Below, in pieces: positions 17,519 through 34,333 of a stretch of 49,105 bases of DNA. Position 1 is the first letter of the stretch. Every line of letters begins with the position of its first letter. The position numbers and the translations under genes were made by a program. The notes beneath the pieces are model-generated. The model ran no database searches and was not told where the DNA came from. It worked only from the letters and a program-made list of their open reading frames with translations. This DNA comes from an uncultured Clostridia bacterium (GTDB lineage Bacteria > Bacillota > Clostridia > UBA1381), in contig CANQIP010000011.1 in the NCBI GenBank assembly GCA_947623955.1, forward strand, positions 1 through 49,105. Reading direction: 5' to 3'.

Positions 17519-18748
17519 ATGAAAAAAACAACGGTAAAAGGCACAAACGACTATCTCCCCGAAGAGGCGAGACTGCGCGGTTACATTCAGCAGACGATAC
17601 TCAAAACGTACACCGACGCGGGCTTTGAGCGCATAATGACGCCTGCGGTCGAGGATATAGAGAACCTCGACAAGAGCGACGGGGGAGACAATTTAAATCT
17701 TATATTCAAAATACTAAAGCGCGGCGACAAGCTGCAAAAGGCGCTCGAAACGGGCGACGAAAAGAACCTTGCGGATATGGGGCTGCGCTACGACCTCACG
17801 CTGCCGCTGTCGCGCTACTTCGCGAACAACCGCGAAAAGCTGCTAATTCCCGCGAAGTGCATACAGATTGACCGCGTGTACCGTGCGGAGCGTCCGCAGA
17901 AGGGCAGACTGCGCGAGTTTATGCAGTGCGACATAGATATAATCGGCTCGTCGTCGCCGTCGTGCGAGGTCGAGCTTATACACACGACCGCGAAAGCGCT
18001 GCTCGCTCTCGGAATGAACGGTTTTACGGTAAAGGTAAACGACCGCCGTATACTGCGCGCGCTTTTAACAAAGCTCGGCTTTGCGGAGGACAGCCTTGAC
18101 AGCGTGTGCATCACGTTTGACAAGCTTGATAAGATAGGTCTTGACGGCGTTAAGGCGGAGCTTACGGACAAGGGCTTTGACGGCGAAGTTACGGAGCGTT
18201 TTGCCGAAATGTTCTCGTCGCCCGTCACGCTCGGACGCATAAAGGAAATATGCGGCGATGAGCTGACCAAAGACGCGGAGTTTATCATAAACGCGTCGAG
18301 GGAGCTTGCGGACGGCAGATACGGCGTGGAATTTGACATATCGCTCGTGCGCGGACAGGGCTACTACACCGGCGCGGTGTTTGAGATCGTGTCGGATAAG
18401 TTCCGCGGCTCGGTCGCGGGCGGCGGCAGATACGACAACCTTATCGGCAAATTCACGGGTGAGAACGTACCGGCGGTCGGCTTTTCGATCGGCTTTGAAC
18501 GTATTTTCGCGATAATGTCGGAGGAGAAAAACGCGCTGCCGCAGGCAAAAAAGAGAATTGCGATGATATTCGACAGGGACGACGTTGTAAACGCGGTAAG
18601 GACAGCCGAAACGCTTCGCGAAACGTACGAGGTAACGCTCGCGGAAAAGCCGAAAAAGCTGTCAAAATACCTTGACAGACTTGCCGAAAACGGCTATTCG
18701 GGCTTTTGCTTTGCCGACAATGCGGACGATATACGCGAGCTTAAATAA
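17519..18748 (+). CDS. hisS: histidyl-tRNA synthetase (short C-terminal domain)
   Basis: A class II synthetase core of the HisRS family, 409 residues. Motif 2 is RVYRAERPQKGRLREFMQCD near 121-140; the histidine motif reads LVRGQGYYTG near 276, where typical bacterial enzymes have RGLDYYTG; motif 3 is GFSIGFERIF near 322. The retained arginines argue for a real synthetase rather than the HisZ regulatory paralogue, and no histidine biosynthesis genes lie nearby. The C-terminal anticodon-binding domain is only about 70 residues and ends abruptly at DDIRELK, shorter than usual. It is the last gene of the dcw transcript, with no gap after murG. HisZ remains the alternative. Confidence 0.8.
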   Translation: MKKTTVKGTNDYLPEEARLRGYIQQTILKTYTDAGFERIMTPAVEDIENLDKSDGGDNLNLIFKILKRGDKLQKALETGDEKNLADMGLRYDLTLPLSRYFANNREKLLIPAKCIQIDRVYRAERPQKGRLREFMQCDIDIIGSSSPSCEVELIHTTAKALLALGMNGFTVKVNDRRILRALLTKLGFAEDSLDSVCITFDKLDKIGLDGVKAELTDKGFDGEVTERFAEMFSSPVTLGRIKEICGDELTKDAEFIINASRELADGRYGVEFDISLVRGQGYYTGAVFEIVSDKFRGSVAGGGRYDNLIGKFTGENVPAVGFSIGFERIFAIMSEEKNALPQAKKRIAMIFDRDDVVNAVRTAETLRETYEVTLAEKPKKLSKYLDRLAENGYSGFCFADNADDIRELK

Positions 18749-18782
18749 AGTCAATTCATTTTTAAAATCCTTTTCTTAACAG

Positions 18783-18814
18783 AAAACGGGACGGCATTTT
18801 GCCGTCCCGTTTTT
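18783..18814. terminator. terminator ending the dcw operon
   Basis: ACGGGACGGCA (18786-18796) pairs with TGCCGTCCCGT (18800-18810) around a TTT loop, with A- and T-tracts on either side. It works for both hisS and the converging gene at 18825. Confidence 0.92.
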
Positions 18815-18824
18815 GTGGTAAAAT

Positions 18825-20846: not shown

Positions 20847-20881
20847 AATGTGTACCTCCCTGTAATTTGCTCTCTACAGTA

Positions 20882-20910
20882 AATACTTTTCAGCACGGCA
20901 AAAGGTTGCA
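20882..20910 (-). promoter_or_regulatory. possible ECF-sigma promoter for the SLH protein
   Basis: On the minus strand TGCAACCTTTT (20910-20900) resembles the -35 element of extracytoplasmic-function sigma factors, and AGTATT (20887-20882) follows at about the right distance for the -10 element. No sigma-A promoter is obvious in this 142-bp gap. Tentative. Confidence 0.35.
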
Positions 20911-20947
20911 CCGTTTTGAAAAAATTTTCAAATTGATATAAGAGAGC

Positions 20948-20978
20948 AAAACGAAAGGGCTTTTTGTAAGCCCCTTCG
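20948..20978 (-). terminator. terminator of the class II aldolase gene
   Basis: On the minus strand CGAAGGGGCTT (20978-20968) pairs with AAGCCCTTTCG (20962-20952), one G-U pair, followed by TTTT. Confidence 0.8.
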
Positions 20979-20988
20979 ACGGTAATTC

Positions 20989-22281
20989 TTATTTTGCGAG
21001 GTGGAACGCGTCCTCAATCTCGCTTATTTCGTCGTCGTTTATCGCCACAACGCTGCCGAGATCCTTCGCCGCGATGATCGCCTTCGCGCTGTACTCCGCG
21101 ACTTCAAGGCGGTCGAACGCGTTTAAGAGGTCGCTGCCCGTTACGATTACGCAGTCGTTTTCGATAATCGCGATAGGCGTGTTTTCCTCAAACACGGCAG
21201 CCGTCTCCTTCGGTTTCATGTAGTTTGCGCCGAATTCGAGTTTCGGGATTTTACGCATAAGAATGTAGCTTTCGGGGATCGTGCGCGAGTCAAGCGGCTC
21301 ATCCGTGACCGCGAACGCCATTATGCAAGGCGGGTGGGCTATGATAATCGAGTTGATATGCGGGTGCTGCTTGTAGATTTCCTTGTGCAGCTCCACGCTC
21401 TTCGACGGGATTTTGCCCATTTCCTTAAAGTCGCCGCTTATCTTAACTATATCCTCGGGTTCAAGATACTTTCTGTCCGAGCCGGTGGGCGTTATAATAA
21501 AGCTGTCGCCGTCTATCCTCTGCGAGAACGTACCCTGCGTGCTCGTAAAAAGCTGCTGGTTGTACGCGCGTTTTATAAGCTTGCACATCTCTCTGCGCGC
21601 AGCTTTTTCCGCGCTTGATATGTTGTGAGCCACGAACTCGTCCATCGACGTGTCCTGTCTCGACTTGTACCAGTCGATTTGCTCCGCCGTAAGCGCCTTC
21701 GGCGTACCTATGTTGTTGGCGTCTATTTCAAGTCTCGCGCTGAAGTCGAGCGTCTCGAACGACTTGAACGCGTCAAACATCGACTTCGCGCCGATAACAA
21801 CGCCGTGATTTTCAAGTATAACGGTGTTAAAGCCCTTCATAAACTCAGCCGCTATCTTATCTCCCAAATCGTTGCTGCCGGGCAGACCGTACTTAGCTAT
21901 GCCTATTTCGCCGCACGAGAACTTTACGTTCGGGATAAGGCTCGTGTGCGGGAGCTTTCTTACGATAGAGAACGCAACGAGAGCCGGCGGATGCGCGTGC
22001 AGCACGGCTTTGAGGTCGGGACGCGCCTTGTAAATATGCTGGTGGAACGGGTACTCGCTTGACGGCTTGTGGTTACCGATAATCTGACCGTCGGGCGTGA
22101 TACGTACCATATCGTCACGCGTGAGCGAACCCTTGTCGATAGAGCCGGGCGTTATCCATATGTCGCCGTTGTCGTCAAGTATCGAGAGATTGCCTCCCGA
22201 TGTTGTTGTCATGCCGTAGCCGTAAATTCTTTCCATGAACATTACAAGCTGGTCGGCGGGGTGGAGCATATCCAAATTCAT
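20989..22281 (-). CDS. double-domain class II aldolase/adducin family protein
   Basis: A 430-residue fusion of two class II aldolase domains. The first (about 1-215) is complete: the phosphate/substrate loop TTSGGNLS near 27, SSEYPFHQ with the catalytic Glu near 75, zinc ligands in LHAHPP near 98 and the third His in ENHGV near 157. The second (about 225-425) keeps IIAHPP but has ENDCV where the third ligand His should be, and lacks the SSE segment, so it is probably non-catalytic. Family members cleave or epimerise sugar phosphates; the substrate cannot be told. GGAGG lies 8 bases upstream. It is divergent from dpaA. Confidence 0.82.
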   Translation of the reverse strand: MNLDMLHPADQLVMFMERIYGYGMTTTSGGNLSILDDNGDIWITPGSIDKGSLTRDDMVRITPDGQIIGNHKPSSEYPFHQHIYKARPDLKAVLHAHPPALVAFSIVRKLPHTSLIPNVKFSCGEIGIAKYGLPGSNDLGDKIAAEFMKGFNTVILENHGVVIGAKSMFDAFKSFETLDFSARLEIDANNIGTPKALTAEQIDWYKSRQDTSMDEFVAHNISSAEKAARREMCKLIKRAYNQQLFTSTQGTFSQRIDGDSFIITPTGSDRKYLEPEDIVKISGDFKEMGKIPSKSVELHKEIYKQHPHINSIIIAHPPCIMAFAVTDEPLDSRTIPESYILMRKIPKLEFGANYMKPKETAAVFEENTPIAIIENDCVIVTGSDLLNAFDRLEVAEYSAKAIIAAKDLGSVVAINDDEISEIEDAFHLAK

Positions 22282-22321
22282 TACATATTCCTCCTTAAAT
22301 TCGTATATTTTTACTAAATAT

Positions 22322-22350
22322 ATTCTACATCAAATATATCCTTTTGTCAA
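22322..22350 (-). promoter_or_regulatory. sigma-A promoter of the class II aldolase gene
   Basis: On the minus strand TTGACA (22350-22345), 17 bp, TAGAAT (22327-22322), about 40 bp from the start codon. It shares the 169-bp intergenic region with the divergent dpaA promoter. Confidence 0.82.
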
Positions 22351-22385
22351 TATTATGAAATAAATCCGCCGAAATTATTTGACTC

Positions 22386-22413
22386 ACACAAACCGTGCCG
22401 AAAACATAATATA
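22386..22413 (+). promoter_or_regulatory. sigma-K-like sporulation promoter upstream of dpaA
   Basis: CATAATATA (22405-22413) matches the mother-cell sigma-K -10 consensus CATANNNTA. An AC dinucleotide stands 17 bp upstream (22386-22387), as in sigma-K -35 elements. The spacing to the nearest TTGACT is 20 bp, too long for sigma-A. The spoVF operon of Bacillus subtilis is transcribed by sigma-K, which agrees. It is 38 bp before the dpaA start. Sigma-E, with a similar -10, cannot be excluded. Confidence 0.6.
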
Positions 22414-22450
22414 AACCACAGGATAAAACAAAAACAGGGGGTAAGAGCAT

Positions 22451-22918
22451 ATGTTTGACACAATTTCCGTAATAGGAGGAGATTTAAGACAGCTTACCGT
22501 CGCACGGCTTTTGCGTGCGGAGGGTTTTCATGTTTTTCTATATGGCTTTGACAGGGACGGCTCGCTGCTTGACGGCGTAGCGGACACGGAGAGCGACCTT
22601 GACTACGTGCTGGGCGCGGATATTGTCGTGCTGCCCGTTCCGGTGACGTTCGACGGAGTGACGGTGAACTCGCCCTACTCCGACGATCCGCTGACGATTG
22701 ACGAGCTTTTGGATAACATAAACCCGTCCGCCGTCGTTTTCGGGGGTCAGATACGTCCCGCGCTCGCGGCGGAGCTTGACGAACGCGGCATTGCCTACCG
22801 CGACTATTTAAAGCGCGAGGAACTCGCTGTGCGCAACGCCGTACCTACGGCGTTTGTGAAAGTGCAGCGGATTTTTACATTCATGTTTTATTTTTGCTGC
22901 CGCGCCGCATATACATAA
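22451..22918 (+). CDS. dpaA: dipicolinate synthase subunit A, 5' part (interrupted by the element)
   Basis: DpaA (SpoVFA) with DpaB makes dipicolinic acid from dihydrodipicolinate in the mother cell for the spore core. The first 134 codons are host gene: the Rossmann start ISVIGGDLRQLTVARLL, then LYGFDRDGS, VLPVPVTFDGV, and the conserved RNAVPTA at the break. After 22852 the frame runs into the element for 21 foreign codons and stops at 22918. The continuation of the conserved segment, starting EGAIEIAIS, is found at 31150. Joining 22852 to 31150 gives 290 codons, close to the 297 of B. subtilis. AGGGGGT provides the ribosome binding site. Confidence 0.93.
   Translation: MFDTISVIGGDLRQLTVARLLRAEGFHVFLYGFDRDGSLLDGVADTESDLDYVLGADIVVLPVPVTFDGVTVNSPYSDDPLTIDELLDNINPSAVVFGGQIRPALAAELDERGIAYRDYLKREELAVRNAVPTAFVKVQRIFTFMFYFCCRAAYT
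22834..22871 (+). other. attL: left junction of the dpaA element
   Basis: The 19-bp sequence CAACGCCGTACCTACGGCG (22834-22852) recurs exactly at 31131-31149. Within it CGCCGTA and TACGGCG are perfect inverted repeats around a central CC (22844-22845). Beyond the core, 22853-22871 is the right arm of the inferred circular-form site: 22846-22871 is the imperfect reverse complement (22 of 26 positions) of 31115-31140 at the other end. Confidence 0.9.
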
Positions 22919-22932
22919 ACGGGGGCGGTAAT

Positions 22933-23055
22933 ATGGAACTTACGCGGCGGCAAAGGCGGGAAATCACAGCGGCGTACAGGCGCGGAATAATAAAGGAACT
23001 GTACGCGCGCTCGCGCCTTACGCGTGAGGAATACCGAAGGCTTATCACAAAATAA
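22933..23055 (+). CDS. 40-residue basic protein preceding the recombinase
   Basis: A small gene of 40 codons begins 14 bp after the dpaA run-on stop and ends 14 bp before the recombinase start. The product is very basic: ELTRRQRREITAAYRRG, then a helix ending LTREEYRRLITK that resembles the C-terminal pattern of SHOCT-type short domains. Its leader GGGGGCGGTAAT is identical to that of the recombinase, so the two are expressed alike. Large serine recombinases usually need a small directionality factor to excise, and this is the only small gene next to the recombinase; that role is inference. Confidence 0.75.
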   Translation: MELTRRQRREITAAYRRGIIKELYARSRLTREEYRRLITK

Positions 23056-23069
23056 CAGGGGGCGGTAAT

Positions 23070-24620
23070 ATGCTGCGCGTTGCGGCTTACGCGAGAGTTT
23101 CAACGGAAAAGGACGACCAGATAAATTCGCTAGCAAACCAGCGTGCATATTTTGAAAATTACATAAAACAACGCCCCGATTGGATTTTTGCCGACGTGTA
23201 CTACGACGAGGGCGTGACCGGCACGCAGACGGCAAAGCGAACGGGATTTAACAAAATGATTGAAGATTGCAGGGCGGGCGAAATCGACCTCATACTGACG
23301 AAGGAGGTAAGCCGTTTTGCGAGAAACACCGTTGACGCGCTCGCGTACACGCGTGAACTCCGCGCATATGGTGTCGGTGTTATTTTCATAAACGACAATA
23401 TAGACACACGCGACGGCGACGGCGAATTTCGCTTGTCGATAATGGCGTCGGTCGCGCAGGAGGAAAGCCGCAAAACGTCGGAGCGCGTCAGGTGGGGACA
23501 GCGGCGCGCCATGGAAAACGGCGTTGTGTTCGGCAACAACAGCATTTACGGCTTTACACTTAAAAACGGACAACTTACCTTGAACGACGACGAGGCGGAG
23601 ATTGTCCGTCTTATTTTTTATAAATACGTCTGCGAGGGCAAGGGCTCGCACGTCATCGCACGCGAACTGGACGAGGAGGGGATAAAACCTCCCAAAACGA
23701 ACGGAAAATGGAGTGGCGAAGAGGTTTTGCACATACTCAAAAATGAAAAGTACGCCGGTAATTTAATACAGAAAAAATATATCACAACGGACTATCTCAC
23801 TCATAAAAAGGTCGTAAACGACGGCGGCAAAATTTATATCCGCAACCACCACGCACCCATTGTAGACCGTGAAATGTGGGAAAAGGCGCGGCAAATCCGA
23901 GAGAAACGCGCAGTGTCCAAAAACAAAACGCGCCCGCACGGGTGCGGAGTTAAAACCTTTTGCGGCTGTTGCGGGTCAAGCTTTACGCCGCGCAAATCAC
24001 CGCGCAAAAGCGGCGAAACGTATAAATTACATATGTGCCGCACACGTTCACGACAAGGCAAAGCGGGCTGCGGTATGCGGACGGTCAACGACAAGTCGGT
24101 TAAAACGGTTTTGGAATACGTCTCGAATTTTTTCACAGCCGAATTCGACAGCGCGGCGAGGGATGTAGTAAAGGAAATAGAAACACTTACCGATACGGAC
24201 GATACCCGTGCAGAGCGAATATCCGAAAAAATAGAAGAGGTAAACCGTAAACGGCTCAAAATGCTCGACGGCTACTTCGCGGGCAAAATAACCGAAACTG
24301 ACACGGAACGCCTTACAGCCGAATATGACAAGGAACTTGCGCGTCTTAAAGCGCAGCTTGATGATCTCGCAAACGAGCGAAGAATCAGAACCGAAAGACA
24401 GCGCGGCTCGGATTTACTCGACACTATAAAAAGCGAAACGCGTTTCTCCGACGGAGTGTATTCCGAAATTATAGACAAAATCACTGTTTACGCCGATTTC
24501 CTAATCGTGAAACCTAAATATCTCGATTTCGCTTTTAAGATTACATACTCGACGCACGGTTACAAGGACGCTTACACGACGACGATTGAAAGCTGCGATA
24601 TTGTTCGCGGCGAAAACTAA
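23070..24620 (+). CDS. large serine recombinase (site-specific integrase/excisionase)
   Basis: The 516-residue protein has an N-terminal resolvase domain beginning LRVAAYARVSTE, with Ser11 as catalytic nucleophile and the arginine-bearing EVSRFARNTVDAL near 75. A recombinase domain follows (about 165-270, GSHVIARELDEEGIKPP), then a zinc ribbon with Cys298, Cys301, Cys323 and Cys334, and a coiled coil (about 370-450, IEEVNRKRLKMLDGYFAG). This is the plan of SpoIVCA, which excises skin from sigK, and of phage and Tn4451-type recombinases. It is co-oriented with dpaA and lacks a visible sigma-A promoter of its own, suggesting expression from the dpaA promoter. Confidence 0.95.
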   Translation: MLRVAAYARVSTEKDDQINSLANQRAYFENYIKQRPDWIFADVYYDEGVTGTQTAKRTGFNKMIEDCRAGEIDLILTKEVSRFARNTVDALAYTRELRAYGVGVIFINDNIDTRDGDGEFRLSIMASVAQEESRKTSERVRWGQRRAMENGVVFGNNSIYGFTLKNGQLTLNDDEAEIVRLIFYKYVCEGKGSHVIARELDEEGIKPPKTNGKWSGEEVLHILKNEKYAGNLIQKKYITTDYLTHKKVVNDGGKIYIRNHHAPIVDREMWEKARQIREKRAVSKNKTRPHGCGVKTFCGCCGSSFTPRKSPRKSGETYKLHMCRTRSRQGKAGCGMRTVNDKSVKTVLEYVSNFFTAEFDSAARDVVKEIETLTDTDDTRAERISEKIEEVNRKRLKMLDGYFAGKITETDTERLTAEYDKELARLKAQLDDLANERRIRTERQRGSDLLDTIKSETRFSDGVYSEIIDKITVYADFLIVKPKYLDFAFKITYSTHGYKDAYTTTIESCDIVRGEN

Positions 24621-24623
24621 ATA

Positions 24624-24652
24624 TTGACAACGCCGCAATATTCGGGTATAAT
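24624..24652 (+). promoter_or_regulatory. sigma-A promoter of the amino-acid ABC transporter
   Basis: TTGACA (24624-24629), 17 bp, TATAAT (24647-24652): a perfect match just after the recombinase stop. It makes the cargo transporter independent of the sporulation promoter. Confidence 0.88.
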
Positions 24653-24697
24653 ATAATATATGTAAAAGGAAAAATAAGTCAGAAAGGAATGTTTTCT

Positions 24698-25486
24698 ATG
24701 AAAAAATTATTAAGCGTACTGCTGTCGGCAGGTGTAATTGCCGCAGCGCTGGCGGGCTGCTCGTCGCAGCCGGCGACAAACGGTGACAATGCCGAGACGG
24801 CAAGCTCCGGCAAGAAGTGGACTATCGCCACCGACACGGTATTCAAGCCCTTTGAGTACACCGATGAATCCGGCAACTTTGTTGGCATCGACGTTGACAT
24901 CGTAGCGGCTGTTGCGGAGGATCAGGGCTTTGACTACGAGATTAAGAGCCTCGGCTGGGACGCGTCAATCGCCGCTTGCCAGGCGGGACAGGCTGACGGC
25001 ATGATAGCGGGCGCGTCAATCACTGAAGAGCGCAAAGCAAGCGGCTGGATTTTCACGGACGGCTACTATGACGCGACGCAGTGCATGACGGTAAAGGCTG
25101 ACTCCGACATAACCGGCTTTGACGGTCTTGCGGGACAGACGGTAGCCGTAAAGACGGGTACACAGGGCGCGTCGTATGCGGAGAGCCTTAAAGATCAGTA
25201 CGGCTTTAGCATTACATATTTCGAGGACTCGCCGACGATGTACCAGGCTGTATCGGGCGGACAGGCGGCGGCTTGTTTCGAGGATACACCGATTATGGCG
25301 TCGTCGATAAAGGATGGCGGTCTTGACCTCAAGATCGTTGAGGGTACGGAAAACGAAGGTAACCCCTACGGTCTCGCAATCTTTGATCCGGAAAAGCAGG
25401 AGCTTGTGGATATGTTCAACGCAGGTCTTGCGAACATCAAGGCAAACGGAAAATACGACGAGATCATCGCGAAATATCTCGGTTAA
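24698..25486 (+). CDS. amino-acid ABC transporter substrate-binding lipoprotein
   Basis: A 262-residue periplasmic-binding-type protein (SBP_bac_3 family, as in glutamine, cystine and histidine importers). It has a lipoprotein signal peptide with lipobox LAGC near residue 20, then WTIATDTVFKPFEYTDESGN at the start of the binding fold, the arginine-bearing SITEERKASGWIFT segment and GQTVAVKTGTQGA. The specificity is not decidable. ATG 24698 is chosen because AGAAAGGA then lies about 9 bases away; ATG 24689 would abut it. It is the first gene of a three-gene importer operon carried by the element. Confidence 0.92.
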   Translation: MKKLLSVLLSAGVIAAALAGCSSQPATNGDNAETASSGKKWTIATDTVFKPFEYTDESGNFVGIDVDIVAAVAEDQGFDYEIKSLGWDASIAACQAGQADGMIAGASITEERKASGWIFTDGYYDATQCMTVKADSDITGFDGLAGQTVAVKTGTQGASYAESLKDQYGFSITYFEDSPTMYQAVSGGQAAACFEDTPIMASSIKDGGLDLKIVEGTENEGNPYGLAIFDPEKQELVDMFNAGLANIKANGKYDEIIAKYLG

Positions 25487-25507
25487 TAAAAAACGCGCAA
25501 TCCAATG

Positions 25508-25534
25508 ACGGACGCCGAAAGGCGTCCGTATTTT
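25508..25534 (+). terminator. intercistronic attenuator hairpin in the ABC operon
   Basis: ACGGACGCC (25508-25516) and GGCGTCCGT (25521-25529) form a perfect 9-bp stem with a GAAA tetraloop, followed by ATTTT. Such partial terminators after binding-protein genes let the binding protein outnumber permease and ATPase. Confidence 0.75.
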
Positions 25535-25550
25535 GAAAGGGGATAAAAGT

Positions 25551-26231
25551 GTGGTTCAGATAATAACAAACTACGGCGGTCTGCTTGTACGCGCGATGGG
25601 ACAGACGCTTTTGCTGGCGCTATGCGGATTGTTTTTCGCTTGTATTCTCGGCGTGATTTTCGGCATACTGAGCGTCGTTAAAAACAAGGTGTGCAACGTG
25701 ATTGCGTCAATATTTGTCGGAGTTGTGCGCGGCGTGCCGATGATAGTGCTCGCGTTTTTCGTGTTTTTCGGTATACCGTACTTGTTTAACAACATCTTAA
25801 ATGTCGAGCATGATGTAATACTGACGGCGCTGCAGGCGGGTACGATATGTCTCGCGTTAAACTGCGGCGCGTACATGTCGGAAATAATACGCGGCGGCAT
25901 ACAGGCGGTCGACATCGGTCAGACGGAGGCGGCGAGAAGTCTCGGACTTCCGTACTGGCGCACGATGCAGCGAATAGTACTTCCGCAGGCGATACGCATA
26001 ATGATTCCGAGCATAATAAACCAGTTCATAATCACCTTAAAGGACACCTCCATTCTGTCCGTCATAGGCTTTCCGGAGCTTGTAAACTCCGCGAAAAACG
26101 TACAGGCGAACACGTTTAAGGCGTTCCAGACGTGGGCAATAGTCGGCGTTATGTACTTGATCGTAATCACGCTGCTGTCGCAGGTTTCAAAGGCTTTGGA
26201 AAGGAGACTCGACCATGACCGTGAAAAGTAA
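25551..26231 (+). CDS. amino-acid ABC transporter permease
   Basis: A 226-residue inner-membrane subunit of the HisM/GlnP family with about five membrane segments. The EAA loop reads [24 protein letters not shown] near 125-147. The start is GTG 25551 with GAAAGGGG 8 bases upstream; a TTG at 25533 is less likely. It overlaps the ATPase gene by 17 bp. Confidence 0.92.
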
Positions 26232-26961
26232 AAACGTGAAAATCCACGTTTCGCACCTTAAAAAGAACTTCGGCAAGCTCGAGGTCTTAAAGGACATTTC
26301 GACCGACGTTTACGAGGGTGAGGTCGTTGTTATAATCGGTCCGTCGGGCAGCGGTAAATCGACGTTTCTGCGCTGCTTGAACCGCCTGGAGGACATTACG
26401 GACGGCGAGGTCATAATAGACGGAAACAAAATAACCGATAAAAAGGTGGACATAAACAAGGTGCGCGAGAACGTCGGAATGGTGTTCCAGCATTTTAACC
26501 TTTTTAATAATTTGAGCGTGCTTAAAAATCTGACGCTCGCGCCGGTGGATTTAAAGAAAGCGACGAAGGAAGAGGCGAAGGAACAGGCTGTTCATATGCT
26601 CGAAAAGGTAGGGCTGTCGGACAAGATTTCCGCGTACCCGAGCCAGCTTTCGGGCGGACAGAAACAGCGCGTGGCGATAGCGCGCGCGCTTTGCATGAAC
26701 CCCGACATAATGCTCTTTGACGAGCCGACGTCCGCGCTCGACCCCGAAATGGTAGGGGAGGTATTGAACGTTATAAAGCAGCTCGCCGCCGACGGCATGA
26801 CGATGGTAATAGTGACGCACGAGATAGGCTTTGCGAGAGAGGTCGCCGACAGAGTAATATTCATGGACGGCGGTTACATAGTGGAGGAAGGAACGCCCGA
26901 GGAGGTAATCAAAAACCCGAAAGAGCCGAGAACGATCGACTTCCTCAATAAAGTGCTTTAA
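26215..26961 (+). CDS. amino-acid ABC transporter ATP-binding protein
   Basis: A 248-residue ATPase energising the importer. Walker A is GPSGSGKST near residue 42, the Q-loop FQHFNLF near 92, the signature [15 protein letters not shown] near 145, Walker [14 protein letters not shown] near 166 and the H-loop VTHEI near 201. The closest families are polar amino-acid importers (GlnQ type). AAGGAGA within the permease gene is its binding site. A terminator follows. Confidence 0.95.
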
Positions 26962-26969
26962 CAAAAAAA

Positions 26970-26999
26970 CGGAGCGTTTCGGCGCTCCGTAAGCTTTTT
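26970..26999 (+). terminator. terminator of the ABC transporter operon
   Basis: ACGGAGCG (26970-26977) pairs with CGCTCCGT (26984-26991); AAGCTTTTTT follows. Confidence 0.8.
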
Positions 27000-27026
27000 T
27001 ATTGCGTATAAGGGAGAGGGTAGACT

Positions 27027-27914
27027 ATGAAGAAACGCACATTACAAGGCAACCTTATACTTATGCTGACCGCGGTAATCTGGGGCGTGTCGTTCGTGTC
27101 GCAGCGCGTCGGTATGGAATACATAAAGCCGAACACGTTTAACGGCATACGCACGATACTCGGTGCGCTTATTTTGGTGCCGTTCGTACTGTTCCGCGAC
27201 AAGACGGGGAAGAGCAGACCGTGCGACACGAAAAAACTCGTGATTGGCGGCGTTGTGTGCGGCGCGCTGCTGTGCGCGGCGGGCACGCTCCAAACGTGGG
27301 GAATGGTGTACACAACGTCCGGCAAAAGCGGATTTATAACGGCGATGTATATGGTTTTTGTGCCGATTATCGGACTTTTCGCGGGCAAAAAAATACGCGC
27401 CGTCACGGTTTTGGGCGTCGCGCTCGCAGTTGCGGGAACGTATATGCTGTCGATCGGCGGCACGGATTTCGTGATAAATAAGGGCGACGTTATAACGCTC
27501 GCGTGTGCGTTCATTTTCTCTTTTCATATTATGACGATAGACCGCCTTTCAAGAGAGGTTGACTGCGTAAAGCTTGCGTGTCTGCAGTTTTTTGTGTGCG
27601 GCACGATAAATATAATACTGATGTTCCTGTTTGAACACCCCGACTGGGAGCTTGTACGCTCGTGCGCAGTGCCGATCGTGTATTCGGGCGTGATGAGCTG
27701 CGGCGTGGCGTACACGCTGCAGATTGTCGGTCAGCAGTACGCCGAACCGACTGCCGCCTCGATAATATTGAGCCTTGAATCCGTTTTCGCCGCGCTCGCG
27801 GGCTGGGCGGTTCTTCACGAAATGCTTACGCTCGGCGAATTGTTCGGCTGCGCGCTAATGTTCGCCGCGATTATTATTGTGCAGCTACCCACGAAAAATA
27901 AAACAGCCGTATGA
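27027..27914 (+). CDS. EamA/DMT-family transporter
   Basis: A 295-residue membrane protein with ten predicted membrane segments formed by two EamA repeats, the first opening with LMLTAVIWGVSFVSQRVG and the second with FIFSFHIMTIDRLSREVD. The late segment EPTAASIILSLESVFAALAGW is typical. Such carriers export amino acids or other small metabolites; substrate unknown. It has its own binding site (AAGGGAGAGGG) and lies tail-to-tail with the kinase gene, nine bases apart. It is part of the element cargo. Confidence 0.88.
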   Translation: MKKRTLQGNLILMLTAVIWGVSFVSQRVGMEYIKPNTFNGIRTILGALILVPFVLFRDKTGKSRPCDTKKLVIGGVVCGALLCAAGTLQTWGMVYTTSGKSGFITAMYMVFVPIIGLFAGKKIRAVTVLGVALAVAGTYMLSIGGTDFVINKGDVITLACAFIFSFHIMTIDRLSREVDCVKLACLQFFVCGTINIILMFLFEHPDWELVRSCAVPIVYSGVMSCGVAYTLQIVGQQYAEPTAASIILSLESVFAALAGWAVLHEMLTLGELFGCALMFAAIIIVQLPTKNKTAV

Positions 27915-27923
27915 TAAATTTAA

Positions 27924-29351
27924 TTATGCTTTTTTAAATTCAAACCAAAACGTGCTGCCCCTGCCTTCCTCGCTTTGCACTCCGAAACGCGCACCGTGGG
28001 CGGTCAGGATTTCCTTTACGATTGATAATCCCAGACCGTTCGCGCCGCGCTTTTTTGATGTGAAATATTTATCCCAGATATGCGGCAAGTCCTCGGCGTT
28101 TATGCCGCCGCCGTTGTCGTGTATCTCCGTACGGACAAATCCACCGTTTTCCGTGACAGAAACATACACGCGCTTATCCTCACCGACATGGGCGACTGCG
28201 TTTGAAATGAGGTTATAGAGTACCTGCTCCAGTCTGCGCGCGTCAGCCGTGACGTATTTTTGCGGCGCGATTTCCGTAATTATTTCAACGCCGTCCGATT
28301 TGCATATCTCGGAAAACTGCTCCGCCGTTTTTTCCGCGAGAACGCTTAAATCCACGCGCTCAAATTCAAACGATACCGCGCCCGATTGGAGCTTTGAATA
28401 ATCGAGAATATCGTTTACCAATAGCGACAGCCTGTCCGATTCACGGACGATGATGTCCGCGTCGTTACCCGCGTCCGCGCTGCCGTCAAGGTCGCGTATA
28501 AGTTCCGCATAGCCCTTTATCATTGTCAGCGGCGTGCGCAAATCATGCGACACATTCGCGAGCAGATCGCGGCGCAGCTTGTCGGTTTCGGCAATTTTAC
28601 CAGCAGCGTATTCGAGCGACGCTGCAAGCTCGTCTGTTTCGGAGCAAAAGCCTTTATTAAATTTTAAGTCAAAATCGCCGTTCGCCATTTTGAGCGACTG
28701 CTCGGAAAGCTCGGAAACGGGCTTTGAAAACCGTTTCGCTATCCATACCGCTATGAAAAGCCCAATCAAAAGCGCGAGAAACGTAACGGCGTAAAGCTGC
28801 ACGCGCAGTATCGCGACAGCCGAGCCGACCGCGCCGATAGACGTGTTTATATACAAAATATTACCGTCCGCAAGCCGCCGCCCGTAAACGAGCGTACCGC
28901 CGTCGCCGCGCTCAATCGTATAGCAAACGCTGCCCTGTGCGCCCAACTTTTCGAGAAAATCGCCGTAATGCTCCGGCAGGCGGCGGTATTCCTGCTCCTG
29001 CCAGTTCTGCATTTCGTCCGCGCGGTACGGATTTTGACCGCCTCCGTGCGCGTGAGCGTCGGGTCTGTACGACGGACTGTATTCGTCCGCGCTGTATATT
29101 ATGCTCCCGTCCGCGTCGGTGAGCAAAATCAATATTGAATTGTCCTCCGCAAGCGCGTCTATCGTTTCTTCCGTGTTTTCGGCGCGGTAAATTTCCTCGG
29201 CGATTTTGCTTATCTGATGCTTTTGCATGGAATTATAAAGGCTCTGCAAAAACACCGTTTGCTGCAGCCACAAAACGGCGAGAATTACCGCCGCGAACGC
29301 GGTGAAATATATCCACAGCTTAAATCCGATTGATTTAGTGTCGAGTTTCAA
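27924..29351 (-). CDS. sensor histidine kinase
   Basis: A 475-residue membrane kinase: first membrane segment about 10-30, an extracytoplasmic domain of about 150 residues with an HAHGGGQ cluster that might bind metal, second membrane segment near 185-205, HAMP, then the dimerisation helix NVSHDLRTPLTMIKGYAEL with the phosphorylated His. The ATPase domain has the N-box QVLYNLISNAVAH, DNGGGINAEDLPHIWDKY and GANGLGLSIVKEI. It overlaps the response-regulator gene by 17 bp, so the two are co-expressed. The stimulus is unknown. Confidence 0.94.
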   Translation of the reverse strand: MKLDTKSIGFKLWIYFTAFAAVILAVLWLQQTVFLQSLYNSMQKHQISKIAEEIYRAENTEETIDALAEDNSILILLTDADGSIIYSADEYSPSYRPDAHAHGGGQNPYRADEMQNWQEQEYRRLPEHYGDFLEKLGAQGSVCYTIERGDGGTLVYGRRLADGNILYINTSIGAVGSAVAILRVQLYAVTFLALLIGLFIAVWIAKRFSKPVSELSEQSLKMANGDFDLKFNKGFCSETDELAASLEYAAGKIAETDKLRRDLLANVSHDLRTPLTMIKGYAELIRDLDGSADAGNDADIIVRESDRLSLLVNDILDYSKLQSGAVSFEFERVDLSVLAEKTAEQFSEICKSDGVEIITEIAPQKYVTADARRLEQVLYNLISNAVAHVGEDKRVYVSVTENGGFVRTEIHDNGGGINAEDLPHIWDKYFTSKKRGANGLGLSIVKEILTAHGARFGVQSEEGRGSTFWFEFKKA

Positions 29352-30012
29352 ATTTATATCCCACCCCTCTTACGGTGACAATATAATCGCGGCAGCCGCC
29401 CAAATGTGCGCGCAGCTGCTTTATCTGCCAGTCGACCGTTCTGTCAGCCGAATAATACTCGTAACCCCAGACCGCGTCCATAATGCGGTCGCGTGTAAGG
29501 ACTACGCCCTCATTTTTTACGAGATACAGGAGCAGGTCATACTCCTTCGCCGTGAGTTCCGTTTTTTCACCGTTTATATAAACAATCCTGCCGAGCGTGT
29601 CAATTTCGATACCGCCAGCTTTTATTTTATCCGATTTGCCCGAGGAAACGCCGCCGTGACGGGCGGTCACCACCTTGACCCGCGCCATCAGCTCGCGCGG
29701 CGAAAACGGCTTTACGACATAATCGTCCGCGCCCGTTTCAAAGCCGAACAGCTTGTCGTATTCCTCGCCTCGCGCTGATAGCATTATGACGGGAATATCC
29801 TTTATTGCGCGTATCTCCTTGCACGCGGAAAAACCGTCAAGTTCCGGCATCATCGCGTCCATTATGATAACGTCAAAATCCGATTTACGGCACATAGAGA
29901 CAGCCTCTATGCCGTTTCCGGCTTCAGCTGTCTCGTAACCCTCGCGCTCGGCATAGCGGCGCACAAGGGCGCGTATGTCCGGCTCGTCGTCAACGATAAG
30001 TATTTTCGCCAT
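29335..30012 (-). CDS. OmpR/PhoB-family response regulator
   Basis: A 225-residue regulator with a receiver domain (ILIVDDEPDIRALVRRYAE, phosphoacceptor Asp in VIIMDAMMPELDG near 52, conserved Lys in VVKPFSPREL near 102) and a winged-helix DNA-binding domain ending VRGVGYKFE. I start it at 30012, where GAGAGGAG lies 8 bases away on the minus strand; an upstream in-frame start at 30063 would add 17 unrelated residues. Its target may be the 11-bp direct repeats before the secreted-protein gene nearby. Confidence 0.94.
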   Translation of the reverse strand: MAKILIVDDEPDIRALVRRYAEREGYETAEAGNGIEAVSMCRKSDFDVIIMDAMMPELDGFSACKEIRAIKDIPVIMLSARGEEYDKLFGFETGADDYVVKPFSPRELMARVKVVTARHGGVSSGKSDKIKAGGIEIDTLGRIVYINGEKTELTAKEYDLLLYLVKNEGVVLTRDRIMDAVWGYEYYSADRTVDWQIKQLRAHLGGCRDYIVTVRGVGYKFETRH

Positions 30013-30034
30013 TGCCACTGCTCCTCTCGGGAGT

Positions 30035-30063
30035 ATTGTATCATAAATTTGCGGAAATTGCAA
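30035..30063 (-). promoter_or_regulatory. promoter of the two-component operon
   Basis: On the minus strand TTGCAA (30063-30058), 17 bp, TACAAT (30040-30035), about 23 bp before the chosen response-regulator start. Confidence 0.7.
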
Positions 30064-30095
30064 TGATGGGGTAAATTATGATTTAGCGGTGAAAT

Positions 30096-30440
30096 GGGGG
30101 CGACCGCAAGGGTCGCCCCTACGGATTATAATTTGTGTTGTCCGTATCAAATAATAAAATATCATGTTGTAGGGGCGACCCTCGCGGTCGCCCGTCCACG
30201 ATAACCCGATGTCAACGATATTGTAGGGGCGTGCCGTATGGCTCCCCTTGAGGGGAGCTGTCGCCGTAGGCGACTGAGAGGTGGTTTCTTAAAATACGTA
30301 TTGCCACCTCTCCGTCATCGCTTCGCGATGCCACCTCTCCTCAAGGAGAGGCTAACGGGCTGTCGAGGGCGCCAGCCCCTACGGCGCACAATTTCAAAAT
30401 TACGGGTGTAGGGGACGGCGCCCCGACGTCCCACATCATA
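30096..30440. repeat. composite cluster of interspersed palindromic repeats
   Basis: This 397-bp gene-free stretch (30064-30460) holds no plausible gene. It contains several hairpin units with a TGTAGGGGCG-type edge (30096-30123, 30168-30197, 30212, 30357-30380, 30403-30430) and a rearranged copy (30229-30344) of the repeat also present at 40001 and 44833: GGCTCCCCTTGAGGGGAGC, then GACTGAGAGGTGG and CCACCTCTCCTCAAGGAGAGG. The same repeats thus occur inside the element and in the chromosome. Confidence 0.75.
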
Positions 30441-30460
30441 TTACACCGTTAAATCACAAT

Positions 30461-30967
30461 TTACTCTTCCGCCTTATACTCCTTAATCGCCTCTGCCTGC
30501 TCCGCCGTTACAACACCGGCTTCAACAAGTTCGTCAAGCCCGTTCCCGCGCGATGCTTTTCTCGTTTCAAACGCCGCGTGACGCTCATCAGCCGTCATAT
30601 CAGACATGTTCTCATACGTCGCGCTTATATCCTCATGTTTTTTCGCCGCGTATTCGGATATAGCGTCGGCGGTCGCTTGGTCGATTATGCCCGCCTCAAC
30701 GAGATCCTCGCTGTCGTAATGAGCTTTATCCATACCGCCTCTGTGAGCCTTGCCCTGTCTGTAGCTGTAATCCGCGCTTGCGGTATCATCCTCCGCGTCG
30801 GCGGTCTGCGAATAAACAAACGTCTGCTCGCCGCCCGTGCCGTAGTGGTTCGCCTTACCCTTCATATAGCCGTAATCAGCCGTTTCCTCCGCGAAAACCG
30901 TACCTGCCGCCGCAATCATTGCCGCAGCCGATACAACCGCGCATACTTTTTTAATTTTGCCGTTCAT
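30461..30967 (-). CDS. small secreted protein with internal repeats
   Basis: A 168-residue protein of unknown function. The signal peptide is basic then hydrophobic (KIKKVCAVVSAAAMIAAAGTVFAEE). Two tyrosine-rich repeats follow (DYGYMKGKANHYGTGG and DYSYRQGKAHRGG), then two helical repeats with LVEAGIIDQATADAISEY and LVEAGVVTAEQAEAIKEY. These pairs resemble short repeats seen in other secreted Firmicutes proteins. I start it at 30967 after AAAGGAG, not at 30997. It lies next to the two-component genes and behind candidate regulator sites, so it may be their output. Confidence 0.75.
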   Translation of the reverse strand: MNGKIKKVCAVVSAAAMIAAAGTVFAEETADYGYMKGKANHYGTGGEQTFVYSQTADAEDDTASADYSYRQGKAHRGGMDKAHYDSEDLVEAGIIDQATADAISEYAAKKHEDISATYENMSDMTADERHAAFETRKASRGNGLDELVEAGVVTAEQAEAIKEYKAEE

Positions 30968-31016
30968 ATTTAACAGCTCCTTTCGATAATTTTGCAATCT
31001 TTTTGATTACGGCTTT

Positions 31017-31072
31017 ATTATACGGCGCGATTGTGTGGGGAATATGTTCGGTATGTGGAATGTATGTGGAAT
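31017..31072 (-). promoter_or_regulatory. promoter with 11-bp direct repeats, candidate response-regulator site
   Basis: On the minus strand a good -10 box TATAAT (31022-31017) has no proper -35 box. Instead GTATGTGGAAT (plus-strand reading) occurs twice in tandem at 31051-31061 and 31062-31072, with a 9/11 copy at 31033-31043. Tandem 10-11-bp repeats over a missing -35 box are typical of promoters activated by OmpR-family regulators. Confidence 0.6.
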
Positions 31073-31114
31073 TTACGGCGCCCCATTTTTTGTCAAATTC
31101 TATATAAAGACTTT

Positions 31115-31149
31115 TCCGCTGCGCTTTTGCCAACGCCGTACCTACGGCG
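31115..31149 (+). other. attR: right junction of the dpaA element
   Basis: It contains the second copy of the 19-bp core (31131-31149), with central CC at 31141-31142. The element-side arm 31115-31140 begins TCCGCTGCGCTTTTGCC and matches the reverse complement of the arm at the left end at 22 of 26 positions. The gene dpaA resumes in frame through the core. Confidence 0.9.
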
Positions 31150-31620
31150 GAGGGAGCAATAGAAATAGCAATATCCGAAACGCCGATAACGATACACGGG
31201 AGCAAATGTCTTGTAATGGGCTACGGCAAGATAGGAAAAATTTTATCGAAGGATTTGTTCGGCATGGGCGCGCAGACCTACGCCATGGCGAGGAAACACG
31301 CGGATCTCGCGATGATTGAAAGTCACGGCTACGAGCCGCTGCCGTTCACGTCGCTTAAAGAACGCGTGGGTGAGTTTGATATTATATTCAACACCGTACC
31401 CGCCATGGTAATGGACGGTGAAATCCTCGCCCGCGTCAGAAAGGACGCGCTCGTGATTGACCTCGCGTCAAAACCCGGCGGGGTGGATTTTGAAGAGGCG
31501 AAGGAATGCGGCGTGCGCGTAATATGGGCGTTGTCGCTGCCGGGAAAAATAGCGCCGATAACCTCCGGAGCTATCATCAAGGACACGATCATTAACATCA
31601 TAAGCGAATTGGGGGTGTAA
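31134..31620 (+). CDS. dpaA: dipicolinate synthase subunit A, 3' part (no start of its own)
   Basis: From 31150 the frame encodes the remaining 156 residues of DpaA: EGAIEIAISETPITIHG, the nucleotide-binding loop VMGYGKIGKILS, FNTVPAMVMDG, VIDLASKPGGVDFEEA and ALSLPGKIAPITSGAII, all as in B. subtilis SpoVFA. There is no ribosome binding site or suitable start, so it is silent unless rejoined to the 5' part. The frame is free of stops or frameshifts, arguing against long-term decay. It ends 3 bp before dpaB. Confidence 0.92.
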
Positions 31621-31623
31621 AAC

Positions 31624-32202
31624 GTGGATTGGGAAAACAAGACAATAGGCTTTGCCATGTGCGGCTCGTTTTGTACCTTCAAAAAAGCCGTTTCGGCAAT
31701 GGAGAAATTAAAAGCGACCGGAGCGAACGTCGTCCCGATAATGAGCGATGTTTCGTATTCGACCGACACTCGTTTCGGCAAAGCGGAGGATTTTATAAGT
31801 CAAATAAAACAAATCACCGGACGGGATATTATACATACAATAAAAGAGGCGGAACCGATAGGACCCAAAAAACTCTTGGATATGCTTATAGTGCTGCCAT
31901 GTACCGGCAACACGCTCGCAAAGCTTGCGGCGGGTATCGCCGACACTTCGGTGACAATGGCGGTAAAGGCACATCTTCGGAACCAACGCCCCGTGCTTAT
32001 AGCCGTTTCAACCAACGACGGGCTCGGCGGCGCGGCAAAAAATATAGGCAGCCTTTTAAACAGTAAAAACGTGTATTTTATACCGTTTGCGCAGGACGAC
32101 TGCATACATAAACCCACATCACTCGTGGCGGACTTCGACAAGGTTACGGATACAGCCGAGATGGCGTTTGAGGGCAAACAAATCCAGCCCATTCTCGGCT
32201 GA
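31624..32202 (+). CDS. dpaB: dipicolinate synthase subunit B
   Basis: DpaB (SpoVFB) is the flavoprotein-like partner of DpaA. The 192-residue product has IGFAMCGSFCTF at the start, STDTRFGKAEDF near 45, LIVLPCTGNTLAKLA near 90, VSTNDGLGGAAKNIG near 125 and FIPFAQDDCIHKP near 150, matching the family throughout. The GTG start follows GGGGGTG by 7 bases, three bases after dpaA, so it is translationally coupled to it. The downstream asd-dapG-dapA genes found in Bacillus are not present. In the interrupted state a transcript from the dpaA promoter would have to cross the element, including minus-strand genes. Confidence 0.95.
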   Translation: MDWENKTIGFAMCGSFCTFKKAVSAMEKLKATGANVVPIMSDVSYSTDTRFGKAEDFISQIKQITGRDIIHTIKEAEPIGPKKLLDMLIVLPCTGNTLAKLAAGIADTSVTMAVKAHLRNQRPVLIAVSTNDGLGGAAKNIGSLLNSKNVYFIPFAQDDCIHKPTSLVADFDKVTDTAEMAFEGKQIQPILG

Positions 32203-32210
32203 CAGCGAAT

Positions 32211-32242
32211 AAAATCAGCGGCATGCACCGCTGATTTTTGCC
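32211..32242 (+). terminator. terminator after dpaB
   Basis: AAAATCAGCGG (32211-32221) pairs perfectly with CCGCTGATTTT (32228-32238) around a 6-base loop. Confidence 0.85.
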
Positions 32243-32297
32243 GTTTTCGGGGAATTTTGTCTGCGATAAAATAATATTAAAAATTATTGAACTCCTC

Positions 32298-32332
32298 TTG
32301 ACAATTTTAGTCGGTCGTGATAGACTAAAATT
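32298..32332 (+). promoter_or_regulatory. promoter and dyad operator of the blaI-like gene
   Basis: TTGACA (32298-32303), 17 bp, TAGACT (32321-32326). A perfect 10-bp inverted repeat AATTTTAGTC (32303-32312) and GACTAAAATT (32323-32332) overlaps both boxes. BlaI/MecI repressors bind such dyads over their own promoters. A second G-C rich dyad (GGTCG...CGACC, 32333-32350) follows. Confidence 0.7.
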
Positions 32333-32367
32333 GGTCGGCAGCGACCGACCGCGTTGGAGGTGATAAA

Positions 32368-32730
32368 ATGAAAAACTTAAAAATCGGAGAAACAGAGTAT
32401 CGTTTTATGAGTATTATATGGGAAAACGAGCCGCTTACGTCAAGGACGCTCGTTGATTTATGCGCGGAAAGGCTCGGCTGGAAAAAATCTACCACATACA
32501 GCACACTCAAAAAATTATCGGAGAGAGGGCTTGTGCAAAATATAAATTCACGCGTTACTTCGCTGATTACGCAAAAGGAGTTTCAAACATACAGAAGCGA
32601 GGAATTTATGGAGAACACCTTTTCCGGCTCGCTGCCGTCTTTTTTGACTGCCTTTTTGGGAGGCAAGAAATTATCCGAAAAGGACGCCGACGATTTAAAG
32701 AGACTGATTGACGCGCACAAGGAGGAATAG
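32368..32730 (+). CDS. BlaI/MecI-family transcriptional repressor
   Basis: A 120-residue winged-helix repressor (Penicillinase_R family). It contains EYRFMSIIWENEPLTSRTLVDL, the recognition region KKSTTYSTLKKLSERGLV near 45-62 and a C-terminal dimerisation helix. Family members repress beta-lactam resistance or other envelope genes and are inactivated by a partner M56 protease, whose gene follows two bases later. No beta-lactamase is visible nearby. TTGGAGGTGAT is a strong ribosome binding site. Confidence 0.92.
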   Translation: MKNLKIGETEYRFMSIIWENEPLTSRTLVDLCAERLGWKKSTTYSTLKKLSERGLVQNINSRVTSLITQKEFQTYRSEEFMENTFSGSLPSFLTAFLGGKKLSEKDADDLKRLIDAHKEE

Positions 32731-32732
32731 AA

Positions 32733-34257
32733 ATGGAAAACGTATTTTTACAAATCCTTAATATGAGCATTACCGGCAGCTATGTTATTCTCGCCGTAAT
32801 TGTCCTGCGCCTTTTTCTTAAAAAAGCGCCCAAGAAATATTCGTATCTGATGTGGACTGTATGCGCGTTCAGGCTTTGCTGCCCCATATCGTTTAAAAAT
32901 ATATTCAGCATATTCAATTTGAGATTTTTTAATATGCCCTCGGAACGGCGCAACACTTGAACATATACCGCAAAATATAGGAATGATGAACGCTCCCGCC
33001 GTATCAACGGGCATAAATTCCCTTGACGGCGCGGTAAACGGCTCACTTCCCGCAGTTGCTCCCATGGCGAGTGTAAATCCGATGCAGGTTATTATTTTTG
33101 CCGCATTCGTAATATGGCTTACGGGAATTGCCGCGCTCCTTATTTACAGTATCGCGTCGTATATAATGCTCCGCGTTAAGCTGCGTAACGCCGTCATTTA
33201 CGACAATAACGTCTATCAGTCTGACAAAATCGGTACGCCGTTTGTGTTCGGATTGATACGCCCCAAAATATATATTCCGTTCGGTATTGATGAAAATGAA
33301 GTGAATTACGTGCTTGCCCATGAGCGTTACCATATCAAAAGGCGCGACTATATCATTAAACCTATCGCGTTTTTGATTTTAACCCTGCATTGGTTCAATC
33401 CGCTGTGCCACCTCGCGTTTATGCTGATGAGCAGTGATATGGAAATGAGCTGCGACGAAAAAGTAATTGCCGAAGGAAAGGTAAAGTCGAAGGAATACTC
33501 CGGCGCGCTGCTGTCGCTCGCCTCGGGCAAGAAACCGCCCGCGCCCTGTCCGCTTGCATTTGGTGAAACGGGCATTAAGGGAAGAATTAAAAACATTTTG
33601 AAATACAAAAAACCAAAGGTTTACGTAAGCGTAATTTCCGTTATGCTGTGCGCTGCGGTCTTAATAGTGTGTGCGTCAAACCCGAATATCGTAAATAACG
33701 CCATTCCGTATGACAGCATAAAAATGTCCGACGACGCTTTAACGGCTTTCGGCGAAAAAATTATAGGTTCTTCCATGGCGGAGATAGATTACGCGGACGA
33801 TGAAAGAATTATTTTTCATTTCAGCGACGCCGTATTCGTTTACAATTTCCAAACGTCGACTATAGAAAAAACATTTGACCTGAACAATCTCAACTGCGCC
33901 AAGTTCCAGCAGGGCGATTACACCGTCGGCATTACCGTATCCACTGACGGAAAAGAGGCTTTGCTGCGTCATGACGGCTCGACCGAACGTATTAAGGATT
34001 TTAAAAATTACATCATAAATCTTGAAACCGGCAGCGCGTCGGAAACCGATAAAACAGAATTAAAAAATCCCTTTTCCAATCTTGCCGACACGTTTACAAC
34101 CGTTACCGACTCAATCGGCTGGACGAGTGCCCGCTGCACGGGTGAAAACGGCAGCATGTGGTATCTGACCTGCGATAAAGCGAATATCGGAAATATGAGA
34201 CTGTGTCTTTACAAAGACGGTAAAACCGTTTCTGAAAAGCCTGTTTTTGACGATTGA
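32733..34257 (+). pseudogene. BlaR1-type M56 metallopeptidase gene with a frameshift
   Basis: Two frames together make one M56 protein. The first, 32733-32960 (75 residues), gives the first membrane segment NMSITGSYVILAVIVLRLFL and stops at TGA. The second, in another frame, is open from before 32983 to 34257 (424 residues) and contains the protease motif HERYH (VLAHERYHIKRRDYI), SSDMEMSCDEKVI and a later membrane segment. The frame changes near 32930-32955, where one base appears inserted. The second part starts with ATG ATG behind a weak TAGGA site, so partial translation is possible. The C-terminal 200 residues are not a penicillin sensor I recognise. A sequencing error is the simple alternative. 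Confidence 0.8.
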
Positions 34258-34333
34258 AAGGTGATGTTCCGTACCGTCATTCGGGATTTGATTTTATGCT
34301 CACCAAGCATATTTTCGTATTCAATATAAGCAT

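Follow-up and report, generated by a model that had tools for sequence, protein, structure and literature searches.

In the 49,105-nucleotide contig CANQIP010000011.1 of an uncultured gut bacterium of the Clostridia (assembly GCA_947623955.1), hereafter called the window, the dipicolinate synthase gene dpaA (spoVFA) is split by an 8.3-kb segment that carries its own large serine recombinase. The segment is bounded by two identical 19-bp direct repeats, CAACGCCGTACCTACGGCG, whose starts lie 8,297 bp apart and of which the window holds no other copy; the inner 14-mer of the repeat is confined to the same two sites, and the opposite strand of the window has no match to it. When the two parts of the gene are joined at the repeat, the frame runs without a stop over 290 codons, and the dpaA stop, which ends at 31620, is separated by three bases from the dpaB start at 31624. 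The 8.3-kb split, the identical repeat, the open joined gene, the short gap to dpaB and the recombinase just inside the left end had been put forward in a preliminary description of this DNA, and all of them were confirmed. The features concerned are:

22385..22413, + strand: sigma-K-like promoter motif upstream of dpaA, CAC - 17 nt - CATAATATA, or ACA with a 16-nt spacer
22451..22852, + strand: 5' part of dpaA, codons 1-134 (Pfam DpaA_N, E 2.4e-29; TIGR02853 positions 3-138)
22834..22852, + strand: left 19-bp direct repeat, attL core, coding for NAVPTA (exact-match search)
23070..24620, + strand: large serine recombinase, 516 amino acids (Resolvase, Recombinase and Zn_ribbon domains; PHROG 95 integrase, E 1.3e-123; site-1 clade, see below)
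31131..31149, + strand: right 19-bp direct repeat, attR core (exact-match search)
31131..31620, + strand: 3' part of dpaA (TIGR02853 spore_dpaA positions 126-287, E 1.9e-55), with its first in-frame start at the GYGKIGK motif
31624..32202, + strand: dpaB (spoVFB), intact (TIGR02852, above cut-off)

All results come from genome assemblies, most of them drafts; that of the window's own organism (G000) comprises 2.13 Mb in 56 contigs and is 87.6% complete. No second intact dpaA was found in this draft, in which the third profile match is weak (E 1.3e-5). An assembly artefact is unlikely, because the same insertion, with the recombinase and a cargo of transporter genes, is present in the assemblies of four other species.

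Strong purifying selection acts on the split gene in the five species that share the insertion. All ten species pairs have low ratios of nonsynonymous to synonymous substitution rates (dN/dS): 0.033-0.097 in the 5' part of dpaA, 0-0.057 in its middle part and 0.015-0.067 in dpaB. The middle part was trimmed, since without trimming it ran a few codons into an element at a second insertion site and reached 0.132. Between the window and G015, the middle part differs by 17 synonymous and 0 amino-acid changes. Wider pairs gave dN/dS values of 0.017-0.150 where the synonymous divergence (dS) was defined, dS being saturated in 2, 5 and 4 of 10 such pairs for the dpaA 5' part, the dpaA middle/3' part and dpaB, respectively. 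Upstream of dpaA, the motif at 22385..22413 is the sole full match between 22300 and 31700 to what we take to be the sigma-K consensus, and of the 13 upstream regions of congeneric dpaA genes examined, split and intact alike, 12 have a CATANNNTA -10 element 41-47 bp 5' of the start codon. Because the halves are open, under selection and behind a sigma-K-like motif, restoration of dpaA by excision is favored over a dead gene, as the preliminary description had argued from the intact halves.

Between the two parts of dpaA, the element has the following further content:

22856..22871, + strand: left inverted arm GTGAAAGTGCAGCGGA, a presumed attP half-site and near inverted repeat of 31115-31130
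22933..23055, + strand: open reading frame (ORF) of 40 amino acids just 5' of the recombinase, a candidate recombination directionality factor
24689..25486, + strand: amino-acid ATP-binding cassette (ABC) transporter binding protein (96-100% amino-acid identity in four sister elements)
25533..26231, + strand: ABC permease (profile match; sister-element comparison)
26215..26961, + strand: ABC ATPase (profile match; sister-element comparison)
27027..27914, + strand: EamA-family transporter (profile match; sister-element comparison)
27924..29351, - strand: sensor histidine kinase (Pfam HisKA and HATPase_c; sister-element comparison)
29335..30063, - strand: response regulator (profile match; sister-element comparison)
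30461..30997, - strand: small protein with a DUF2680 match slightly under the cut-off (profile match; sister-element comparison)
31115..31130, + strand: right inverted arm TCCGCTGCGCTTTTGC, a presumed attP half-site, read from the junction sequences

Since the arms GTGAAAGTGCAGCGGA and TCCGCTGCGCTTTTGC are near-inverted, an excised circle would bear a roughly palindromic attP around the core. The recombinase gives partial matches to serine recombinases in the PDB, the best being 3g13 over residues 2-155. The 40-amino-acid ORF has no Pfam or PHROG match; it is conserved in the four sister elements, similar ORFs precede the recombinases at the same dpaA position in G007 and G008, and a weaker counterpart is seen in G034. 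Pfam and PHROG scans recognized no phage structural, lysis or replication genes in the element, the cargo matching PHROG families of unknown function, ABC transporters or kinases, with weak cross-matches for the ATPase or the regulator. Its G+C content is unremarkable (0.49-0.53 at 23,000-31,000 versus 0.50-0.54 at 17,000-23,000, in 1-kb steps). The intergenic stretch 30097-30440 holds a palindromic GTAGGGGCGACC-type run, stretches of which match three loci in the genus (L031, L044 and L113).

The same recombinase, 40-amino-acid ORF and transporter cargo lie at the same dpaA codon in G015, G012, G010 and G013, with 84-92% identity to the window for the recombinase and 94-100% for the cargo transporters. 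The full cargo set is common to G015, G012 and G010; in G013, the two-component pair and the DUF2680-like protein had no match. In the recombinase tree, G000 pairs with G015, while G010, G012 and G013 group together, consistent with descent of all five copies from a single old insertion. At synonymous positions, G000/G015 differ from G010/G012/G013 by about 0.2 in the 5' part of dpaA, but by 0.5-0.9 in its middle part and by 0.8-1.1 in dpaB; the 5' part, together with the adjoining end of the element, may therefore have been exchanged between species. In G006, whose dpaA is intact, an orthologue of the binding protein (84%) lies among other genes outside dpaA, next to the permease and ATPase (locus L163, contig C56, about 31870-34300), and the cargo therefore looks like captured host genes. 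The element looks old and domesticated in the window's clade, because it is common to five species, has no phage structural, lysis or replication genes recognized in the scans above and carries ordinary transporter and two-component genes. Beyond this clade, the recombinases at the same position in G007, G008 (present in short contigs only) and G034 are 54-74% identical to that of the window, and the only other matches of their elements to that of the window were the dpaA piece and an ABC-ATPase similarity.

The preliminary description had dealt with the split dpaA of the window alone. We surveyed dpaA with profile TIGR02853 in 95 genomes of the order (counts read off the result table and recounted) and in 16 genomes at genus level, excluding matches with E 1.3e-6 or weaker from both surveys as presumed paralogues. 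Across the order, dpaA is full-length in 51 genomes, fragmentary in 25 and not found in 19. The split in the window is no isolated oddity: at the junctions examined, dpaA is cut at three recurrent positions, namely, site 1 at NAVPTA (~codon 133), site 2 at KPGGVDF (~250) and site 3 at SLPGK (~265). At least two pieces are present in 20 of the 25 fragmentary cases (counting G022, whose 3' contig is probably misbinned), and a single piece is present in the other five (G024, G030, G036, G041 and G093). A single contig carries both pieces in 13 genomes, seven of them cut at site 1 (G000, G007, G012, G013, G015, G034 and G071), four at site 2 (G050, G069, G086 and G090) and two at site 3 (G031 and G053), where G071, G086 and G090, like the single-piece G093, were assigned to sites from match ends only. 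Sites 1 and 2 are both occupied in G010, G012, G013 and G015, and sites 2 and 3 apparently in G050, whose last piece was not found. The 28 named loci of dpaA relatives come mostly from uncultured Clostridia or Oscillospiraceae, along with strain MD329, labeled Lachnospiraceae, which has an intact dpaA; the sample names include Lapin (presumably rabbit), goat, dairy cattle and chicken.

Inverted arms flank the core at sites 1 and 2, and the site-1 repeats are exact over 14 to 19 bp in eight genomes, the copies in G001 and G007 differing at one to a few positions. All in silico joins attempted were open (10 of 10 at site 1, one of which, that of G022, probably pairs contigs from two organisms, and 8 of 8 at site 2), and those not cut again give 286-290 amino acids. 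The predicted site-2 join of G015, KPGGVDFEEAKECGVRVIW, is present uninterrupted in the window. The stops present in G007 (5' match) and G001 (3' match) fall past the joint, in element sequence. The G022 3' contig (C73, CANQXJ010000073; L117/L051) codes for a dpaA protein 98% identical to that of the window in a genome labeled as another genus, and starts at the counterpart of window position 30998, within the element; it is this contig that we consider probably misbinned. G060 and G013 were considered as mixed split and unsplit populations and rejected as such, the extra copies being diverged and looking like other organisms in the bin (two dpaA pieces at 50% and 59% identity to the query in G060; two dpaB genes at 89% and 76% to that of the window in G013).

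Recombinases cluster by insertion site in a tree of 27 rows (site 1, 100/99; site 2, 100/98; site 3, 100/100), of which three are short fragments and in which several long branches outside the site groups are unsure. Three genomes of another family, whose recombinases are outside the tree, fit this pattern by identity, that of G071 being 46-60% identical to site-1 proteins and those of G086 and G090 56-64% identical to site-2 proteins. G009 and G015 have site-2 recombinases with 98% identity, far above that of their dpaA parts (68% and 79%), which points to a recent transfer. G000 itself has six large serine recombinase matches: those on contigs C11, C10 and C4 are at joints of dpaA or of a cotJC-like gene, those on C3 and C2 are flanked by ORFs of which none examined is an interrupted sporulation gene, and contig ends are the location of those on C2 and C15. 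The window recombinase has 32 viral relatives, all distant (best-segment identity 36-45%), and no viral relatives were confirmed for the site-2 recombinase.

Splitting extends to other genes. By the positions of its pieces, dpaB is cut after ~codon 158, and the two share a contig in G012 (26 kb apart; L133 and L168) and G023 (19 kb; L170 and L171), where the recombinases near dpaB in L133 and L171 belong to another lineage; in G013, G034 and G042, the 5' part has the same end point, and the 3' piece is on another contig. The cotJC-like gene of G000, which follows cotJA and cotJB, is in three pieces (C10:5643-5747, L164; C10:43307-43408, L165; C4:3422-3832, L113), the second and third of which have a large serine recombinase next to them. 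The piece ends fit QYGG-PNGEL and DIGT-EELA and match the unsplit copy of G009. The first cotJC segment, of 37.5 kb, codes for a helix-turn-helix protein, a metallopeptidase, a phage-type amidase and methyltransferases. At least two cotJC pieces are present in 9 of the 16 genus genomes, as read from the result table, the junctions having been inspected in G000. In contrast to these genes, sigK, the site of skin elsewhere, is uninterrupted in 15 of the 16, G000 included; in G008, the best match is a SigE-like gene.

Taken together, we consider it highly probable that the 8.3-kb segment is a skin-like intervening element, inserted at the NAVPTA codons of dpaA and excised in the mother cell. It lies within the coding sequence of a sporulation gene, between short att repeats, and its excision in silico restores the reading frame. 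As dpaA is cut by an element with its own recombinase, and likewise in relatives, the gene is probably re-joined for each spore. In the mother cell, the serine recombinase would catalyze recombination between attL and attR, aided by a directionality factor that is perhaps the 40-amino-acid protein encoded just before it. This would release a circle and restore the 290-codon dpaA behind its sigma-K-type promoter, so that dipicolinate could be made; and since the mother cell dies, the element would persist in the spore line at no cost. The recombinase might be constitutive and only its helper controlled, as in Clostridioides difficile. The preliminary description had spoken of a skin-like switch in dipicolinate synthesis: structure, selection and promoter motif support this, while excision, its timing, its restriction to the mother cell and the role of the 40-amino-acid protein are what we infer from the arrangement of the locus.

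Several observations weigh against this interpretation. Neither the excised dpaA junction nor the circle was seen in the assemblies, that of G000 is incomplete (87.6%), and spore formation by this organism is deduced from gene content. No convincing sigma-E- or sigma-K-like promoter was found upstream of the recombinase or the 40-amino-acid ORF, and G009, which is cut at site 2, has no sigma-K-like motif ahead of dpaA. The attP patterns composed for sites 1 and 2 gave 0 matches each to viral contigs. Finally, some fragmentary genomes show a single piece only, and the 3' dpaA match of G020 contains a stop.

These last cases could also mean that insertion inactivated dpaA and that both halves are left over in a lineage that is giving up sporulation. 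Loss or absence of the gene does occur, dpaA being undetected in 3 of the 16 genus genomes (G004, G011 and G014), and G020 and the five single-piece genomes either have one piece or a join that is not demonstrated. Yet the 5' and middle parts have dN/dS values of 0-0.10 across all ten species pairs, all attempted joins are open, and the promoter motif and dpaB are kept, which makes a dead gene very unlikely. Alternatively, the halves might be translated separately and assemble as domains of a permanent two-part DpaA, without excision. The break does fall between DpaA_N and the NAD-binding part, and G010, G012 and G013 have an in-frame TTG upstream of the 3' part. No start codon lies ahead of the ATG at GYGKIGK in the window or G015, however, and a start there would drop ~25 conserved residues; G008 has only a GTG at that place, and G001 and G007 have no start in the stretch searched (8 of 9 loci reported). 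Moreover, the 5' part has an unconserved tail that varies in sequence and length among genomes, and at sites 2 and 3 the gene is interrupted close to the end of its C-terminal domain, so that we regard a two-part protein as very improbable.

The missing sporulation promoters bear on a further alternative, namely, that an ordinary mobile element is parked in a conserved gene, its occasional excision being kept by selection, since excised cells sporulate, with no developmental control. The apparent recent transfer of the site-2 recombinase between G009 and G015 and the phage-type genes of the 37.5-kb cotJC segment would suit such an element. We nevertheless think this unlikely for the window, whose element has no recognized phage structural, lysis or replication genes and is present in five species with its repeats and recombinase kept. 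In addition, the split genes identified are mother-cell genes in Bacillus subtilis, as in the described cases.

A broader view of the operon, to which we would give an even chance, is that it serves as a standing landing pad with multiple sites, where each of three recombinase lineages has an attB of its own in dpaA, a further lineage cuts dpaB, and elements stack; the element of the window's clade would then be no parasite but a fixed compartment of host transporter and signaling genes. The operon of G012 lies in four pieces that would need three separate excisions per sporulation, amounting to a programme of DNA-level splicing run once in a dying cell, and spore formation would entail a programmed removal of host genes from mother-cell DNA. 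Across the order, a single enzyme gene is interrupted at three conserved positions, cuts also affect its partner and a coat gene, and the recombinases are tied to their sites. Gene-calling pipelines may thus report dpaA, dpaB and cotJC as absent or defective in gut spore-formers that do possess these genes, and genome-based surveys of sporulation ability may therefore be biased. Matched pairs of recombinases and att sites are possible integration tools. The mother cell has been argued to be a place where loss of an element is harmless because the cell dies (PMC6957869, in the portion available), and the idea that mother-cell genes are a safe harbor for mobile DNA becomes testable by comparison.

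The element of the window belongs to a known kind of system, in a gene for which we found no report of interruption in the open-licence PubMed Central literature; no element in cotJC was found reported there either. This agrees with the preliminary description, which knew of no described dpaA element, although the same operon is already known as a target through vfbin, a finding reportedly due to Abe et al. in 2013. As far as the available portions of the sources go, described intervening elements lie in sigK, spsM, spoVFB, spoVR, gerE and yabG (PMC10747680, PMC5595907, PMC5025042, PMC6957869). The vfbin element lies in spoVFB of Bacillus weihenstephanensis KBAB4 (PMC10747680, PMC5595907; gene, PMC6957869) and, like that of the window, interrupts a dipicolinate synthase gene, in the operon shared with dpaA. 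It differs in affecting subunit B rather than A, in occurring in another bacterial class, and in being prophage-like, whereas the window element has no recognized phage structural, lysis or replication genes, which sets it apart from the prophage-derived skin, vfbin, SPbeta and yin; dpaB is intact in the window.

With skin in the sigK of Bacillus and C. difficile, the window element shares a large serine recombinase and att sites, and excision of skin restores a mother-cell gene (PMC5025042). According to the portion available of the same source, the skinCd recombinase is made in vegetative cells and in both compartments, and the cell type is set by a recombination directionality factor under sigma-E and SpoIIID; neither an interrupted sigK (in 15 of 16 genus genomes) nor a promoter of that type was found here. 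The element gin, in gerE of Bacillus cereus ATCC10987, is of a non-phage type like that of the window; its small protein GirX, of 42 amino acids, which is needed along with the recombinase (PMC5595907, in part), may have a counterpart in the 40-amino-acid ORF. It differs in having three recombinases and 28.6 kb, against one recombinase, 8.3 kb and transporter genes in the window. A more distant parallel is offered by the cyanobacterial heterocyst elements, which, by the portion available of PMC4874684, sit in nitrogen-fixation genes of another phylum but, like the element proposed here, occupy genes of a specialized cell type and are excised as that cell differentiates.

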